IMG/VR virus record: IMGVR_UViG_3300024346_000337
Coordinates: 1-30,886 of that record
Length of the DNA: 30,886 nt
Direction: 5' to 3' (one strand)
Origin: a virus
Made by a program: the position numbers and the translations under genes. Under the pieces are notes generated by a model. The model was not told where the DNA came from and searched no databases. It worked only from the letters and a program-made list of their open reading frames with translations. Positions 1 through 30,886 of the stretch are shown one piece after another (within the stretch, counting starts at the first letter, position 1; every line of letters starts with the position of its first letter).

Positions 1-70
1 CCTATCAAGGTGAAGAAAAGTTAGTAAACAAGGTTCGCCTGGTGTTCGAACTACCATTGGAAACCGCAGA
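1..70. repeat. Left copy of the terminal overlap
   Basis: These 70 bases match the last 70 bases of the window except at positions 26, 32 and 39. All three differences are synonymous in the shared reading frame (Val, Lys and Leu codons). Because the repeat sits exactly at both ends and continues the same protein, it is best read as the overlap of a circular or circularly permuted genome assembled from slightly different strains. A true within-molecule terminal repeat would normally be identical. Confidence 0.85.
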
Positions 71-599: not shown

Positions 600-893
600 A
601 TGAAAAAATTAGTAAGCCTTGAAAACCGCGTTGAGAAACTGCTTAAGAAGTACAAGACGCTCCGCAACAACAACAAAGCACTTTGTGTTAAAGTTTGGGA
701 ACAACAGTTCGACGAACGTAAAGACATCACAAGCAACTTCTTTGCGATGTACGAAAGCGGAAAGTATGTAAGCGCGGACAACATCACACGAATAGCGCGA
801 TTGGTTAAGGAACACAATCCAGAACTACGCGGAACAAACCACGCGACCAACAAGAAGAAAGAGCAGTTAATCAAACCACTATTGAAACGATGA
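600..893 (+). CDS. Small basic hypothetical protein (97 aa)
   Basis: I do not recognise this protein. It is lysine-rich and mainly helical, with a likely N-terminal coiled coil (residues 1-30) and a middle part, SADNITRIARLVKEHNPELR, that could be a small helical DNA-binding unit. The start is an ATG just after an A-rich leader, TTAAAATCAAAAC (586-598). The stop overlaps the next start (ATGA, 890-893), so the two are probably translated together. Its place among replication genes suggests an early role in DNA metabolism or regulation, by inference only. Confidence 0.55.
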   Translation: MKKLVSLENRVEKLLKKYKTLRNNNKALCVKVWEQQFDERKDITSNFFAMYESGKYVSADNITRIARLVKEHNPELRGTNHATNKKKEQLIKPLLKR

Positions 894-1129
894 ATAAAGC
901 AATTTACAAAACCCCATTCGGTCGACTTGTCAAAAGTCAATTCAAGACGCTGACGAACTTCAAGACCGCGTTACGCATCAGCGACCCAACAGCACGACTT
1001 TACGTCGCACACCCAGAGCGAATGAGAATCAAAGACTTCAACAACATTTGCCTTCATACAGGACTATCTCGCGAAGAAGTATTCAGCACCTTTACACCCA
1101 CCAAATTAATAAACGAAGAAAATGACTAA
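890..1129 (+). CDS. Small putative DNA-binding protein (79 aa)
   Basis: This is a basic protein whose C-terminal half contains ERMRIKDFNNICLHTGLSREEVF. That has the spacing of a helix-turn-helix like those in small XRE-type regulators. The N-terminal part, FKTALRISDPTARLYVAHP, has a pattern I associate with small phage regulators in Bacteroidetes phages. The gene is coupled at both ends: it starts at the ATGA overlap with the previous gene and its end overlaps the next start at 1122. No catalytic motif is visible. A regulatory role is inferred. Confidence 0.45.
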   Translation: MNKAIYKTPFGRLVKSQFKTLTNFKTALRISDPTARLYVAHPERMRIKDFNNICLHTGLSREEVFSTFTPTKLINEEND

Positions 1130-3517: not shown

Positions 3518-4827
3518 TGCAACCATACAAACCCGAATACCTGCCGCGTCAGATTGAAGCACTTAACTATTTAGCAACCGATTCACAAGTTGAACAGTTA
3601 CTTTACGGTGGCGCGGCAGGGGGTGGAAAGACTAAGTTTGGTTGTATGTGGCAAATACAGCGACGTTTGAAGTACGCAGGGACGCGTTCTCTTATTGGAC
3701 GTAGCAAATTAGACACGTTAAAAAAGACGACGTTAAACACGTTCTTTGAAACAGCGAAAGAGTTTGGTTTGGTTGCTGACAAACACTACACCTACAACGG
3801 TCAAACGAACGTGATTAAGTTCTTCAATGGAAGCGAAATAGTGTTGAAAGACTTATTTGCTTATCCTTCAAATCCGAACTTCGATTCACTTGGATCGTTG
3901 GAAATTACCGATTATTTTATAGACGAGGTAGCAGAGGTAACAGAGAAAGCCGTGAACATCGTTCACTCTCGTTGCCGTTATAAGTTGAATGAGTTCGGGT
4001 TAATTCCTAAAGGTTTTCTTTCGTGTAATCCTTCGAAGGGTTGGTTGTACAACGAGTTTTACATGAAGAACAACCGCAACGAACTACCTTCACATCGTGC
4101 CTTTGTCCAAGCGTTACCGCAAGACAATCCCTTCCTTCCTGTTGCTTATATCGAATCGTTGCGTCGCCTTCCAGAGTACGACCGCAAACGTCTGCTCGAA
4201 GGCAATTGGGAGTTCGACGATGATTCAGACAAGTTGTTCAACACAGAGAATCTTCTTCGAATGTTCCGCAACGAAGTAATCAATGAAGGCAAGAAATATA
4301 TCACAGCCGACATCGCGCGTTTTGGAAAGGATAGAACGATTATTATTGTATGGGAAGGTCTAACTATCATCGACATTATTGAGTTGAATAGAGCCGCGTT
4401 GGACGAAGTAGTAAACAAGATTCGTGTTGTAGCCAAAGAACACAACATATTACTTCAAAACATCATCGCGGATGAAGATGGCATCGGCGCGGGAGTCTGT
4501 GACTTTTTGAAGTGCTTAGGATTTCAGAATGGATCTAAACCCAAACACCCACAATACCAAAACTTGAAAAGCGAGTGTTACTACAAATTGGCTCAGTATG
4601 TAGAGGAGAATCGACTCACTATCTTATCCAGTACGCGCAAAGAACAAATCATTCGTGAATTAGAAATGATTAAACGACACCGCGCGGACGTGGACGGAAA
4701 GTTGCAAGTAACACCGAAGGACGTTATCAAGAACAGAGAAGGAATCAGTCCAGACGTTGCTGACGCGATAATGATGCGAATGTATTTCGAACTCAATCCT
4801 TCTTATGGACAATATGTTGTTGGTTAG
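3517..4827 (+). CDS. terL: Terminase large subunit
   Basis: This is the motor ATPase and nuclease that packages phage DNA into proheads. The ATPase domain has a Walker A at G32-T39 (GAAGGGKT) and a Walker B ending D136-E137 (DYFIDE). The C-terminal RNase H-like nuclease has the expected acidic residues: D265 in TADIARFGKDRT, D319 in IIADEDGIGAG, and D413/D416 in SPDVADAIMM. At 436 residues the length is normal. It starts at the one-base overlap with the preceding stop. It is odd that it lies in the plus-strand replication unit, away from and opposite to the portal and capsid genes. No small terminase gene sits beside it. Confidence 0.95.
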   Translation: MQPYKPEYLPRQIEALNYLATDSQVEQLLYGGAAGGGKTKFGCMWQIQRRLKYAGTRSLIGRSKLDTLKKTTLNTFFETAKEFGLVADKHYTYNGQTNVIKFFNGSEIVLKDLFAYPSNPNFDSLGSLEITDYFIDEVAEVTEKAVNIVHSRCRYKLNEFGLIPKGFLSCNPSKGWLYNEFYMKNNRNELPSHRAFVQALPQDNPFLPVAYIESLRRLPEYDRKRLLEGNWEFDDDSDKLFNTENLLRMFRNEVINEGKKYITADIARFGKDRTIIIVWEGLTIIDIIELNRAALDEVVNKIRVVAKEHNILLQNIIADEDGIGAGVCDFLKCLGFQNGSKPKHPQYQNLKSECYYKLAQYVEENRLTILSSTRKEQIIRELEMIKRHRADVDGKLQVTPKDVIKNREGISPDVADAIMMRMYFELNPSYGQYVVG

Positions 4828-4850
4828 CATACGTTCACTATATTAGCACA

Positions 4851-5063
4851 ATGAAAAACACACCATTATACGAGTCTTTGAAAATGACTTACGAACGCGA
4901 ACGTGAAATCGTTAATTCACTCGCGAACTATTTCCAACAAGGAAAGATTCTTGGAGATATCCTTCTGGAGCTTTCACAACGAAAAGACTTAAACGCGAAA
5001 GAGAAAATCTATCTTGCGCTTATGATAGGTTCAATGATGTCGAAGCCGAATGAAGAAAAGTAA
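4851..5063 (+). CDS. Small hypothetical protein (70 aa)
   Basis: I do not recognise this protein. It is an all-helical, charged small protein with no cysteines or membrane segment. It starts 24 bases after the terminase gene and overlaps the next gene by 14 bases (5050-5063). A near-consensus promoter, TTG (4817-4819), 19 bases, TATATTAG (4839-4846), lies just upstream. It would put the transcript start almost on the ATG, so it is doubtful. Confidence 0.5.
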   Translation: MKNTPLYESLKMTYEREREIVNSLANYFQQGKILGDILLELSQRKDLNAKEKIYLALMIGSMMSKPNEEK

Positions 5064-5247
5064 TTTACTTACGCAAGTCATCGCTGAATTAGAAGCGCGT
5101 GAAGCGAAGGGAATGGAAACGTATGGAACAACACTCGACCGAACCGATTTAACGCGCTCTGAGTGGCTACAACACGCGTACGAAGAAGCGTTAGACCTTG
5201 CGCTTTATTTGAAGAAACTTAAAATAGAAGAAGATGCCAGAAAGTAA
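5050..5247 (+). CDS. Small MazG-like protein (65 aa)
   Basis: The segment KGMETYGTTLDRTDLTRSEW, followed by LQHAYEEALDLALYLKK, matches short phage proteins I associate with the all-alpha NTP pyrophosphatase (MazG-like) group. The EExLD stretch resembles the metal-binding ExxD half of that group's signature. The protein is shorter than a full enzyme, so it may be a dimeric minimal form or a degenerate relative. Known family members hydrolyse nucleotides or alarmones; activity here is inference. It overlaps both neighbours by 14 bases. Confidence 0.45.
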   Translation: MKKSNLLTQVIAELEAREAKGMETYGTTLDRTDLTRSEWLQHAYEEALDLALYLKKLKIEEDARK

Positions 5248-5410
5248 AACTAAAAAAGGAATATGTGTGTACTTGCACAAAGACCTATGGAACGAGATAG
5301 ACGAAAAGAGAGGTGAGAATAGTCGCAACACATTTTTAAGTGAAGCAATTGAGTTCTCTTTGAAGTTCTACGTTCCAGAATCTAAAGTAAAATTGAAAGA
5401 ACAAAAGTAG
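5234..5410 (+). CDS. Ribbon-helix-helix DNA-binding protein (58 aa)
   Basis: The start ATG is at 5234, inside the end of the preceding gene, and the stop TAG is at 5408-5410. The pattern is that of a CopG/Arc-type repressor: a beta strand, KGICVYLHKDLW (8-19), then helix NEIDEKRGEN, then helix SRNTFLSEAIEFSLKFY. Such proteins dimerise and insert the paired strands into the DNA major groove. It is the last gene of the plus-strand unit. Its 3' end overlaps the 3' end of the opposing spanin-like gene by 29 bases. A natural target would be one of the phage promoters, but nothing in the sequence identifies it. Confidence 0.65.
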   Translation: MPESKTKKGICVYLHKDLWNEIDEKRGENSRNTFLSEAIEFSLKFYVPESKVKLKEQK

Positions 5411-25856: not shown

Positions 25857-26210
25857 CTACCCTAATTTTCCCTTGTAGTGGTTAATAAGTTGCTCCATTT
25901 TGCTATCGTAGTATTTCGAGAATGTTTTGAAGCCGTCGTTGTCCTGTTCGAATAGTCGAAAGAGAACACCCCTGAGACGTTGTGAGGGCTTCTTTAACGT
26001 ATCTTCTAACTCACTCTTTAATGATTCAACCGCGTCCAGTTCTTCGCGCTTAAAGTCTTCATCTTTGAACGCAAGATAACCAAATTGATTTGCTATTGTG
26101 AATAGTTCTGACGCTTGCGCAGGTGAAAGTTCATTCGTTCCAAATGTTAGTTTGAGCGTTTTGTCCTTTCGCGTACCTACGCTTTCAAGTTGAGCGGGAA
26201 TAATTATCAT
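25857..26210 (-). CDS. Conserved phage hypothetical protein (117 aa)
   Basis: A strand-rich start (KTLKLTFGTNELSPAQASEL) leads to a helical C-terminal half with KPSQRLRGVLFRLFEQDNDG and KMEQLINHYKGKL. I recall this SQRLR...LFEQD pattern from many Bacteroidetes phage proteins of unknown role near the terminase or tail genes. It overlaps the preceding gene by 4 bases. Confidence 0.55.
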   Translation of the reverse strand: MIIIPAQLESVGTRKDKTLKLTFGTNELSPAQASELFTIANQFGYLAFKDEDFKREELDAVESLKSELEDTLKKPSQRLRGVLFRLFEQDNDGFKTFSKYYDSKMEQLINHYKGKLG

Positions 26211-26623
26211 TCATCACCTCCGTAAGTTTCGTTGTAGTACTTCCTAAAAGCATCTTCAGATTCTGAATTGTCTAAACCTTTCATTTTTTCAATAGCGTAC
26301 TTAAGCGCGTTTACCCAAGTAAGTGCGTGTTGATACTCTTGACCTTTACTGTTATCCGAAGATTCAACTTCCACTTCTTTACTCTTGTAATAATCTTCAA
26401 TAGACTCATACTTAAAATAAACACCATCGTGTTTAACAGCACATATCTGCGCCTCTTTAAATATCTCAGCCTCTTGCTCTTTCTCCATTTTTTGCGCTTC
26501 ATAAAACAAGTTATGATGCGTAATGAGGAAGTCAGTGTTAGTGATTTCACCGTTGTTCTTTTTTACAATTAATTCATGTGAGGCATTTGCATACCATTCA
26601 ACCGCAGTTTGTTTCTTTTCCAT
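26207..26623 (-). CDS. Hypothetical charged helical protein (138 aa)
   Basis: I do not recognise a family. The protein is rich in Lys and Glu and predicted mostly helical, with a segment GVYFKYESIEDYYKSKEVEV and an aromatic acidic end. Coding is supported by a clean ATG start and overlap with the next gene (26207-26210). Confidence 0.5.
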   Translation of the reverse strand: MEKKQTAVEWYANASHELIVKKNNGEITNTDFLITHHNLFYEAQKMEKEQEAEIFKEAQICAVKHDGVYFKYESIEDYYKSKEVEVESSDNSKGQEYQHALTWVNALKYAIEKMKGLDNSESEDAFRKYYNETYGGDE

Positions 26624-26625
26624 AG

Positions 26626-26916
26626 TTATTTAGTTTTAAATTGTTCTCTTTGCCATTCAGCACCTTTTCTAGCACCGTCTGCCCATATCTCTTGGGAAAA
26701 GCTACCTTCATCGTAGCCTTCTCTTTCTAAAAATTCTTCAAATGTTTCTTGACTTGCATTTGATTCAACTGGTACTTCAAAGACTTCTACTCCGTCATGG
26801 TCTGATTCATCCCATAGCATTGAGTCATCACAGTTTAGAATGTCGACAATGTACTTAGCTTCTTGTTCCGTTGTTTCTTTGGTGTTGTAGATGAACACCG
26901 TTCTTTTTGTTTTCAT
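26626..26916 (-). CDS. Hypothetical acidic protein (96 aa)
   Basis: A strand-like start (KTKRTVFIYNTKETTEQEAK) is followed by an acidic helical stretch and a Trp-containing end. Not recognised. It is the first gene after the promoter-like element at 26949-26968, with about 26 leader bases. It may start a separate transcript. Confidence 0.5.
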   Translation of the reverse strand: MKTKRTVFIYNTKETTEQEAKYIVDILNCDDSMLWDESDHDGVEVFEVPVESNASQETFEEFLEREGYDEGSFSQEIWADGARKGAEWQREQFKTK

Positions 26917-26948: not shown

Positions 26949-26968
26949 CAAATCTATGCTAAACTTTT
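26949..26968 (-). promoter_or_regulatory. Promoter or operator motif upstream of the 96-residue gene
   Basis: The minus strand reads AAAAGTTTAGCATAGATTTG, with a TAnnTTTG -7 box (TAGATTTG) at its end. It matches the early plus-strand promoter region at 29040-29059 in 19 of 20 bases. The -33 position is AGA rather than TTG, so it may be weak or depend on a regulator. Confidence 0.6.
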
Positions 26969-27225: not shown

Positions 27226-27245
27226 TCTTGTTACTTCTTAAATTC

Positions 27246-27290
27246 AAAAAACACTCAGTATATTAATTACTCCCGAGATTAGATCTGGAG
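27246..27290 (-). terminator. Terminator of the structured RNA
   Basis: A hairpin at 27270-27290 (8 bp, two-base bulge), or alternatively 27254-27258 with 27273-27277, precedes a minus-strand U6 tract at 27246-27251. Either form could end the transcript near 27245. Confidence 0.5.
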
Positions 27291-27625
27291 CTAAGTGAGA
27301 GATAGAAGTATCCAAGCACACTAATTTCTTAATGTGTTGGACTCTCACTTTTGCGATAATTACTCCGTCGAATGAGTCTCTCGCTGTTGTGTCCTAACGT
27401 GAACAGCAATGTCCGTTAGTCTGGAATCTATCTTTCGAAGAATTGCCTCTCCGTGTGTCGTATGGCTTATTCCTTTGTCATACCATTGGGCTTTAACACA
27501 ATCCCACAGTTGCCCTTATTCGTCTTTTACCCTGCCGTTCAATACTCCCGACGATAAAAAATATACCCCCAATTGTCTTATGCCGCCAAGCAAAAACAAA
27601 AGGGGGTAGTATCGCAATGCTTGGC
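27246..27625 (-). ncRNA. Structured non-coding RNA, about 380 nt
   Basis: This 440-base gene-free gap has no supported coding frame but is full of paired segments. Reading the minus strand: 27619-27625 pairs with 27585-27591, and 27602-27608 with 27564-27570 (7 bp each), interleaved as an H-type pseudoknot. A second pseudoknot pairs 27414-27419 with 27394-27399, and 27402-27407 with 27383-27388 (6 bp each). A long hairpin, 27293-27350, has stems of 9, 5 and 8 bp and a GAAA loop. A further hairpin lies at 27270-27290, followed by six U at 27251-27246. Two G-U pairs form only in the minus-strand RNA, which fixes the orientation. It is not recognised as tmRNA, RNase P or a riboswitch; a group I intron is a weak alternative. 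Confidence 0.7.
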
Positions 27626-27630
27626 TGTAA

Positions 27631-27660
27631 CAAATATACTTTGAATATTATTCGTTACAA
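27631..27660 (-). promoter_or_regulatory. Promoter of the structured RNA
   Basis: The -33 TTG (27658-27660) and -7 TATATTTG (27631-27638) are separated by exactly 19 bases, the Bacteroidetes housekeeping consensus. The predicted start is near 27625, where the first pseudoknot arm begins. An 11-bp inverted repeat (27626-27636 with 27649-27659, one mismatch) spans the promoter and may be an operator. Confidence 0.7.
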
Positions 27661-27667
27661 CGATAAG

Positions 27668-28102
27668 TTATTCACCTATTTCAACATCCTTCATTGATTC
27701 AAGAAACGTATTGATGTCTTTCTTCACGCAAGGGGGACAAGTAGAACGCTCGTTGAACGCTCCTGTGGCTTTATCCTTGAACGAATAAAACTTCAGCATA
27801 TCATTCGGTTCAAGACGTCCTTGCGCTTTCATATCAAGAAGGAATCGTTTGAACTCTATTTGTTCATCCAACGACAACACACCGTCCCACTTTGAAGCTG
27901 GACAGGAAGCGAAGGCTAACTTTGCCTTGATAGGCATAACACAACCGCACAACTTAATCGACTTGCGACGGAATAGGACTTCGGTTTCCACTTCGTCGCC
28001 AACGATCAATTGACCGCAGCTTTGCGTTGATGATTCAAAGAATTTACAGGTGCGACAGATTTCAAGTCGTCTTTTATACTCGTTACTTTTTGCGAATAAC
28101 AT
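27668..28102 (-). CDS. Cys-rich putative zinc protein (144 aa)
   Basis: Cysteines at C16, C19, C29, C52, C54 and C67, plus a later CPPC, point to one or two zinc sites. The pattern is LEICRTCKFF, QSCGQLI, KLCGCVMPIK, ASCPASKW. I recall similar proteins in Bacteroidetes phages near a sigma-like gene. It overlaps that gene by 20 bases, so the two are co-translated and may act together on host RNA polymerase; the link is inference. The structured-RNA promoter begins 8 bases after its stop codon. Confidence 0.6.
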   Translation of the reverse strand: MLFAKSNEYKRRLEICRTCKFFESSTQSCGQLIVGDEVETEVLFRRKSIKLCGCVMPIKAKLAFASCPASKWDGVLSLDEQIEFKRFLLDMKAQGRLEPNDMLKFYSFKDKATGAFNERSTCPPCVKKDINTFLESMKDVEIGE

Positions 28103-28583
28103 TTGCTCTTATTTTTTGTTTGATATTATCAATTGTTCGGTAAAGGAAAGGCATTGGTATGCCTGTTTGTTTTGACAGCTCTCGGTAGGTGAAACCTTCG
28201 AATATGTACTCTTGAAAGATTAGCCGTTCAAACTCGCTTAATCGACTAATTAGAATATCCAGTTGCTCGTTTGTCATTCGTGCGCCTAACCACGTCTTAT
28301 CGACTTCGTGCGCATATTCTTTGAAGTCGCGTCTATTTCTATTCCACGCGATAGTTTGTTTGTAGAAAGGCGACGTTGGACTGTTGACCGCGAGATACAT
28401 AACGCGGATTAGATAGAACTCAAAGTCGCCTGTGTCAATTAAATTTTCAATATGCTTTGAACCAAACATTGACAACAAAGAATCGTGAAGCAAGTCTTCG
28501 TAGTAATCCTCACCTCGCGAGATATTCTTCGCAAGCTCTTTGAACTTTTTGTAATGTCCCTCTATATAAGTTTCAAGTGTCAC
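28083..28583 (-). CDS. Sigma-70-like (ECF-type) transcription factor
   Basis: The GTG at 28583 is the start, since it overlaps the previous stop as GTGA. The 166-residue protein has the two helical domains of small sigma factors. Region 2 is about 20-75, with EDYYEDLLHDSLLSMF. Region 4 is about 110-160, with LSEFERLIFQEYIFEGFTYR and the helix-turn-helix ELSKQTGIPMPFLYRTIDNI. Such a factor could redirect host RNA polymerase to late phage promoters, which is attractive at the head of the late unit. Region 2 is divergent, so it may instead be a regulator that only resembles sigma. Confidence 0.7.
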   Translation of the reverse strand: MTLETYIEGHYKKFKELAKNISRGEDYYEDLLHDSLLSMFGSKHIENLIDTGDFEFYLIRVMYLAVNSPTSPFYKQTIAWNRNRRDFKEYAHEVDKTWLGARMTNEQLDILISRLSEFERLIFQEYIFEGFTYRELSKQTGIPMPFLYRTIDNIKQKIRANVIRKK

Positions 28584-28984
28584 CCATTAAAATATTCGTC
28601 GATAACTTTGATTGCTTCTTCATTACCCTTACAAATATAAGAACAATACCCCCTGTTTCTTAAATCGTCCTGCCAACGCTTTTGTTCTGGCGACGCAGTA
28701 CCACCTTTCAACTTCTTCATTTCAATAGCAAGACCGTGAAACTCTCCGCGTGGTTCGTAAATGAATAGGTCGGGAAAGCCTTTGACGTAGCCTGTGCGCT
28801 TCATCTTGATCGCTTGCAAGTAACTCGTTCGCATTCCACCTGCGGAAGCGCAATACAACGCTTCGGGATATGCTAAACGAATGTACTTTATAACTATTTC
28901 TTGTTGGTTCGATTCGGATTCGGGCGTTGTTTTACGCTTCACAACACTTTTTTTGTATGTTTTCTTAAAAGTTTTTACATTCAT
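28580..28984 (-). CDS. VRR-NUC domain nuclease
   Basis: The ATG at 28984 is chosen over a TTG two codons upstream. The 134-residue protein matches the VRR-NUC fold: ESNQQEIVIKYIRLAYPEAL, GGMRTSYLQAIKMKRTGYVK, GFPDLFIYEP, then LAIEMKKLKGG and SPEQKRWQDDL. The PD...(E)xK pattern (PDLFI, IEMKK) gives the catalytic core. Stand-alone VRR-NUC proteins in phages act on structured DNA, such as junctions or replication intermediates. It is the first gene of the minus-strand unit. Its stop overlaps the next start. Confidence 0.85.
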   Translation of the reverse strand: MNVKTFKKTYKKSVVKRKTTPESESNQQEIVIKYIRLAYPEALYCASAGGMRTSYLQAIKMKRTGYVKGFPDLFIYEPRGEFHGLAIEMKKLKGGTASPEQKRWQDDLRNRGYCSYICKGNEEAIKVIDEYFNG

Positions 28985-29029
28985 TTTCAATCAGTTAGAA
29001 ATTATTTTCAATTTATTTTCATTTTTTTG

Positions 29030-29059
29030 TTGCTATCTCAAAAGTTTAGCATATATTTG
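29030..29059 (+). promoter_or_regulatory. Early promoter of the plus-strand unit
   Basis: TTG (29030-29032), exactly 19 bases, then TATATTTG (29052-29059) match the Bacteroidetes promoter consensus. The next start codon is at 29107, leaving an A-rich leader of about 40 bases. The 29040-29059 part matches the minus-strand motif at 26949-26968. No equally good promoter was found for the divergent gene at 28984. Confidence 0.75.
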
Positions 29060-29106: not shown

Positions 29107-29481
29107 ATGAGAACAAAAATTGAAAGCACAGTAACCTTTAGCGGACTTTCTGTAAGAATTGACGAATTTCTTAAATTATGGGCTACCTATGCAGGTCGTT
29201 CTATCAAAGAACTTCCTTTTAAAAGAGATTTACGCGGTTGGAATGACGGTCATACCAGTATGCAGCCGAAAAAAACTATCGCGTGTTATGCGTGGAGCAG
29301 GGAAGAAGGCAATCAATGTGTTGGGGTGTATGAAATTTGGGAGCGTAAAGATGGTTACAGCATCGAGTGTTTCAAGTTTAACACTATTGAAGATTATAAT
29401 CAATACGATCCTTGTCAAGATAGCCCCGACGCTATTAAGCGCGAAATCGGATTATGCGAAAATTATCATACAGGAATTTAA
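29107..29481 (+). CDS. First early gene, hypothetical protein (124 aa)
   Basis: Not recognised. The protein has a strand-like start (STVTFSGLSVRIDEF), a middle with Trp-rich stretches (KLWATYAGRS, CYAWSREEGN) and several cysteines. As the first gene after the early promoter it would be made soon after infection, when phages often express host-takeover factors. This is inference from position only. Confidence 0.5.
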   Translation: MRTKIESTVTFSGLSVRIDEFLKLWATYAGRSIKELPFKRDLRGWNDGHTSMQPKKTIACYAWSREEGNQCVGVYEIWERKDGYSIECFKFNTIEDYNQYDPCQDSPDAIKREIGLCENYHTGI

Positions 29482-30564: not shown

Positions 30565-30886
30565 TGGGGTACTACAAGCGCGTCAACGAACAATCGCACT
30601 TGCACGAAAGCCAAACGCGTCACATACAAGCGGACGAAGAACTGGCTGTTAAGTTCGAACAATATCTAAATTCATTTAATAACAACAAAATAAACAACAA
30701 CAACATGAGCATCATTGCCCAAAACAACAACAACAACAGCGGAGGTCAAACAGTCCCCGCAGGTACACACGTAGCGCGTTGCTACCAAATCATCCACATC
30801 GGAACAATCGTCGACACCTATCAAGGTGAAGAAAAGTTAGTGAACAAAGTTCGCTTGGTGTTCGAACTACCATTGGAAACCGCAGA
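30564..30886 (+). CDS. Putative replication/ssDNA-binding protein, N-terminal part
   Basis: This open frame continues at base 3 of the window. Two starts are possible. The ATG at 30564 overlaps the previous stop (TAATG) and gives 47 extra residues (MGYYKRVNEQSHLHESQTRH, then an Asn-rich stretch). The ATG at 30705 (MSIIAQ) follows an A-rich leader and gives about 218 residues in total. The family-like domain begins at VPAGTHVARCYQII. The Asn-rich stretch could be a linker or untranslated leader. The protein probably coats or guides single-stranded DNA in replication. Confidence 0.55.
   Translation, partial: MGYYKRVNEQSHLHESQTRHIQADEELAVKFEQYLNSFNNNKINNNNMSIIAQNNNNNSGGQTVPAGTHVARCYQIIHIGTIVDTYQGEEKLVNKVRLVFELPLETA
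30817..30886. repeat. Right copy of the terminal overlap
   Basis: This copy matches bases 1-70 with three synonymous differences and completes the circle. Confidence 0.85.

Follow-up and report, generated by a model that had tools for sequence, protein, structure and literature searches.

A 20-bp sequence recurring at two putative promoters on opposite strands of a phage genome

Does a 20-bp sequence that recurs on opposite strands of a viral genome mark a promoter class belonging to the phage, and does it join the early genes of that phage to a block of genes on the minus strand? The question was raised by a reading made from the sequence alone (the sequence-only reading), and we addressed it in the window, a complete IMG/VR record of 30,886 bases, and in related viral loci. 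The two ends of the window (1-70 and 30817-30886) repeat each other at all but 3 of 70 bases, and a reading frame of 218 aa crosses the junction; the best reading is therefore a circular or permuted genome that was assembled with a small variant overlap. Genes are on the plus strand from 29107 through the junction to 5410 and on the minus strand in the remainder. Because the nearest named phages by terminase are Cellulophaga phage phi10:1 (48.1%) and Flavobacterium phage 11b (48.6%), the host probably belongs to the Bacteroidota. In phage 11b we found no site within 2 mismatches of TTTAGCATANNTTTG.

Anatomy of the two copies

The 20-mers AAAAGTTTAGCATAGATTTG, at 26949-26968 on the minus strand, and AAAAGTTTAGCATATATTTG, at 29040-29059 on the plus strand, differ by a single mismatch, as first described; both are noncoding, lie directly upstream of genes, and are oriented toward the next gene. 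The sequence-only reading had held that similar matches at random positions in coding sequence would speak against its interpretation. No further copy within 3 mismatches was found in the window, 0.01 matches were expected by chance, and two matches were reached in 0 of 100 dinucleotide-preserving shuffles. The plus-strand copy is here called P1 and the minus-strand copy P2:

29040-29059, plus strand: P1 copy of the 20-mer, made up of AAAAGTTTAGCA and the -7 box TATATTTG at 29052-29059 (from the sequence and relatives)
29030-29032, plus strand: -33 TTG of P1, 19 nt from the -7 box (from the sequence, following the architecture TTTG/TANNTTTG given in the portion of PMC6847099 drawn on here)
26949-26968, minus strand: P2 copy of the 20-mer, with its -7 box TAGATTTG at 26949-26956 (from the sequence and a matrix scan)

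Bacteroidota promoters, according to that portion of PMC6847099, carry TTTG at -33 and TANNTTTG at -7, with transcription starting 4 to 5 nt after the box; in Flavobacterium johnsoniae the -33 element is weak, G at -10 is almost absent from promoters, and the region near -18 is AT-rich. Both 20-mers end in the Bacteroidota -7 box TAnnTTTG, which is followed after 47 nt by the ATG at 29107 (plus strand) in P1 and after 32 nt by the ATG of the gene starting at 26916 (minus strand) in P2. P1 forms a complete promoter, TTG-CTATCTCAAAAGTTTAGCA-TATATTTG (that is, TTG-N19-TATATTTG), and P2 has no TTG at the -33 position. The -7 box by itself proves nothing, since plain TAnnTTTG occurs often in the window (39 matches versus 33.3 expected). 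What the copies have in common beyond the promoter boxes is AAAAGTTTAGCA, directly upstream of the -7 box, and the earlier observation that they agree at spacer bases was correct. No clear dyad was apparent on inspection of either copy. A scoring matrix made from 21 distinct P1 30-mers of relatives, with the window left out, gave 41.8 at 29030 (plus strand) and 21.2 at 26949 (minus strand), the next site in the window scoring 5.9 and the best in six shuffled windows 9.3. An E. coli-type sigma-70 scan was uninformative, with 18 matches versus 14.5 in shuffles.

A third site, a shorter relative of the 20-mer (TTAGCATACGTTCA) starting at 4824 on the plus strand, had been overlooked:

4824-4835, plus strand: P3, TTAGCATACGTT right where the terminase large subunit gene stops, the third site of the class (pattern scan)

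In relatives, too, a second site usually follows directly after the terminase large subunit gene: the word TTAGCATA lies no more than 73 nt from its stop in 79 of 86 distinct regions. On inspection, the register of this word relative to box-like sequences varies, and in some cases there are two copies of TTAGCA, spaced 10 or 19 bases apart. One class of post-terminase site, TTAGCATAnnTTnA, varies between phages at the n positions and is otherwise fixed; some starts at post-terminase sites lie 4 nt after a box-like sequence and would give leaderless messages.

Conservation of P1 and a possible origin of P2

To follow P1 through relatives we used its divergent neighbor as an anchor and a second promoter of the window as an internal control:

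28580-28990, minus strand: VRR-NUC gene, divergent from P1 (domain match)
29107-29481, plus strand: first gene after P1, differing between relatives (comparison of relatives)
27631-27660, minus strand: Pnc, a TTG-N19-TATATTTG promoter before a structured noncoding region, spacer not conserved

Eighty loci were fetched by the sigma-like protein described below, independently of the motif, and the P1 region could be evaluated in 74 of them, leaving out L085 (a contig-end artifact), three loci without a VRR start, and two truncated loci. The scan of related phages proposed in the sequence-only reading found TTAG[C/T]ATA at P1 in all 74, as GTTTAGCATANATTTG in 55, as AGTTAGCATANATTTG in 10, and in other forms in 9, the phage group being close-knit and the 74 regions therefore not independent. 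In three of the nine other forms (L086, L088, and L104) the -7 box is displaced by 3 bp and TTTAGCA has stayed put. The first gene after P1 varies among members. In a spacer comparison of 48 distinct pairs, anchored only on the -7 box and replacing motif-selected P1 columns that were circular, mean pairwise identity was 0.81 in the right spacer and 0.48 in the left, compared with 0.52 at the corresponding positions of the Pnc spacer and 0.65 at third codon positions of the neighboring VRR-NUC gene; the bootstrap range of the right-spacer difference between P1 and Pnc was 0.18 to 0.38. The element is thus held more tightly than its surroundings.

Behind Pnc lies a very conserved noncoding region of about 400 nt (27226-27643, minus strand), whose consensus fold in 12 relatives has an energy of -93.8 kcal/mol; double changes that keep pairing are seen at 10 of its 114 pairs. 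It matched no Rfam family at the gathering threshold (best weak match, 29.8 bits; cutoff, 49.4), and may be a new structured RNA.

The element is largely confined to this phage group. Among 80 stretches listed in an IMG/VR scan for the exact 19-base pattern, 74 were from the group; five of the other six (L007, L042, L050, L064, and L066, the sixth being L040) carry the exact motif with no gene of the group and share one common upstream context. TTAGCATANNTT gave 51 matches, with at least one in each of 26 near-complete members chosen from the loci collected here, and the reversed pattern gave 2. The exact pattern occurred 4 times in 257 Gb of prokaryote genomes, and in 295 Bacteroidia genomes TTTAGCATANATTTG was hardly above its control (25 matches versus 17 for the reversed pattern). 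These controls rule out a host origin of the motif within the genomes sampled, outside which the real host may lie.

P2 precedes two minus-strand genes:

26626-26916, minus strand: first gene after P2, with a homologue in the early plus-strand operon of locus L130 (sequence comparison)
26207-26623, minus strand: second gene after P2, MEKKxTAVE family (start counts in relatives)

The homologue in L130 (91%) follows the 1675 gene in the early operon and has no promoter of its own directly upstream. In the MEKKxTAVE family, among the loci collected here, 14 distinct starts lie on the early strand; the late strand has 2, in the window and L034, the same two contigs that carry P2. Between the 27668 and 25857 genes, 56 distinct intervals were compared; only those two have the element and a -7 box in register, and two more contain TTTAGCATA without the box. 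Since the P2 regions of the two contigs are 97.5% identical, P2 may be a single event, and we consider that it probably is. Outside the 20-mer, P2 shares little with P1. The simplest account would be that early cargo shifted to the minus strand, where it has an early-type promoter core. The proposal that the 20-mer joins the early unit to a minus-strand block therefore stood in part: P2 precedes two genes of early-operon kinds, but it is no general promoter of the late block, and most relatives are without it.

We consider it likely that P1 and P2 represent one shared functional promoter class specific to this phage group, because two copies were found where 0.01 were expected, P1 is conserved, and the P2 genes are of early-operon kinds. 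This supports the earlier suggestion of a shared regulator site or phage-specific promoter class, the element being fixed in the group, better conserved than the rest of the spacer, and absent as a class from Bacteroidia genomes. Against this reading stand the missing -33 TTG of P2 and its G at -10, almost absent from F. johnsoniae promoters according to the portion of PMC6847099 drawn on here, as well as the probable single origin of P2 and the close relationship of the 74 P1 regions.

What may read the element

The observations are consistent with a model in which P1 and P2 would each be a host-type Bacteroidota promoter with a -7 TAnnTTTG box and a fixed extra element, AAAAGTTTAGCA. P1 would open the early plus-strand operon, as its position and conservation support, and P2, located before two accessory genes of early type that now lie on the minus strand, would place them under the same signal and presumably the same timing. 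Most likely, the extra element would be an operator, with TTTAGCA next to the -7 box as the binding site of an early phage protein that coordinates when these promoters are active. That the element is the operator of any phage regulator we put at somewhat below an even chance. Two proteins are candidates for reading it:

890-1129, plus strand: candidate regulator, 79 aa, Cro/XRE helix-turn-helix model (predicted structure; 94 of 94 loci)
28083-28583, minus strand: sigma-factor-like protein between the P1 and P2 copies (PHROG 1740; ECF-like model)

The first of these, present in all 94 loci spanning its region with a nearly invariant helix-turn-helix part, is the best candidate; its model (pLDDT 78.6) resembles Cro/CI-type regulators (best E value 0.21, probability 1.00, TM score 0.61), and it may bind the element. 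The protein at 28083-28583 is the second candidate; it matches the PHROG 1740 sigma factor family (E value 7.5e-10), and the PDB matches of its model are almost all sigma factors but weak (best E value 0.017). Its homologues come from about 99 viral loci that make up a close clade, and none was found in 50,697 named phage records searched. An XRE-like protein at 1854-2063 was ruled out as a general regulator, occurring in only 12 of 94 loci, and a ribbon-helix-helix reading of 5234-5410, made by eye, gained nothing useful from Pfam or PDB sequence searches. Also against the favored reading are the lack of a clear dyad in P1, the finding, by eye, of no correspondence between P1 variants and sequence groups of the sigma-like protein, and the lack of a homologue of the 890-1129 protein in five other records searched, four of them of the Sphingobacterium family.

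A rival that is unlikely but deserves weight is that the element is an extended -7 element favored by host RNA polymerase, giving strong early expression with no phage regulator. Its register with the -7 box is kept in all but a few P1s, its GTTT is positioned near -18, an AT-rich part of F. johnsoniae promoters according to that portion of PMC6847099, and it could compensate for the poor -7 box of P2. Enrichment in Bacteroidia would then be expected, yet the excess over the reversed pattern was small; moreover, TTAGCATA occurs in other registers at P3, and the box is shifted in three P1s.

The chance seems small that the sigma-like protein reads the element by replacing the host sigma factor at P1, P2, and P3. 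Its gene adjoins P1 in the group, and both its PHROG match and its weak PDB matches point to a sigma factor. Against it, P1 already carries both host elements, an early promoter must fire before a phage sigma factor exists, and P1 variants do not track its sequence groups by eye.

We find it slightly less probable still that P1 and P2 are ordinary promoters alike only through recent duplication of P1 or a swap between close relatives. The group is closely related, and in L010, L015, and L077 the terminase is followed by a duplicated P1 region, complete with its flanks, that has a different gene behind it; against this, P1 and P2 share little outside the 20-mer, and Pnc spacers in the same phages have diverged (identity of 0.52 versus 0.81 in P1). 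Least probable is that the element serves packaging or replication, as a site for TerS or DnaA-like binding, and overlaps promoters by chance: P3 follows the terminase, TTTAGC arrays precede terS in Sphingobacterium prophages, and a protein with DnaA domain IV is found in 94 of 94 loci, but the sites overlap -7 boxes and point the same way as the gene that follows, both in the window and in most relatives, and one prophage has them before a prohead protease-like gene too.

No report of this motif was found in the literature searched, which says little about how Bacteroidota phages time the expression of their genes. Together with its candidate partner protein, the conserved 20-bp signal offers a testable early-control circuit; the signal could serve to annotate early genes, moved accessory genes included, in many metagenomic phages and might provide a phage-derived regulated promoter for Flavobacterium-type hosts.

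Comparison with known systems

P1, as TTG-N19-TATATTTG, and the -7 box of P2 resemble the Bacteroidota housekeeping (sigma-ABfr) promoter (-33/-7, TTTG/TAnnTTTG), to which both add a fixed 12-bp spacer element. The -33 TTG lies about 19 nt upstream in P1 and is absent from P2, and P1 conforms to the rule of no G at -10/-9 (TAHHTTTG), whereas TAGATTTG of P2 has G at -10. Unlike phage-sigma promoters without host elements, P1 does carry them.

In phages such as the lambdoid phages, early promoters are under operators read by Cro/CI-type regulators, and Cro-type operators are usually dyad symmetric. The present system is similar in having a short site beside a polymerase box that recurs at a few promoters (P1, P2, and P3) and a predicted Cro-like protein encoded in the early operon; it differs in having one site per promoter, with no clear dyad in P1.

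A likeness in arrangement was also seen in prophages of the Sphingobacterium family, whose terminase is related (40%) and in which TTTAGC also stands directly before a TAnnTTTG box. The comparison covered six displayed terminase loci, three weaker terminase matches (L331 to L333) being outside it. In four of the six, GCTAAA-n3/4-TTTAGC followed by more TTTAGC around TAnnTTTG lies directly upstream of terS, and the other two (L329 and L330) have no TTTAGC array. In the one prophage record examined whole, that of the Sphingobacterium prophage L336, another array precedes a prohead protease-like gene; TTTAGC/GCTAAA half-sites about 9 to 10 bp apart there surround the terS and prohead protease-like promoters (462-503 and 4857-4899). 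GCTAAA-n3/4-TTTAGC was rejected as a Sphingobacterium host regulon, as the site recurring in all four genomes reads as a terminator hairpin; it lies at or just beyond the 3' end of an oxidoreductase gene in each of the three genomes examined for this (L346, L348, and L349). The prophages differ from the present group in having several half-sites, including GCTAAA-n3/4-TTTAGC dyads, at packaging and head-gene promoters, and the relation between the two may be one of convergence. The arrays nonetheless make the operator reading more plausible. A broader hypothesis, which we regard as rather unlikely, is that TTTAGC beside TAnnTTTG is a regulatory word used across Bacteroidota phages for one type of regulator, and that genes switched to the other strand keep their timing by acquiring it, as the P2 genes would have done. 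If so, the same word would serve as single sites at early promoters in this phage group and as arrays at packaging and head-gene promoters in Sphingobacterium prophages.
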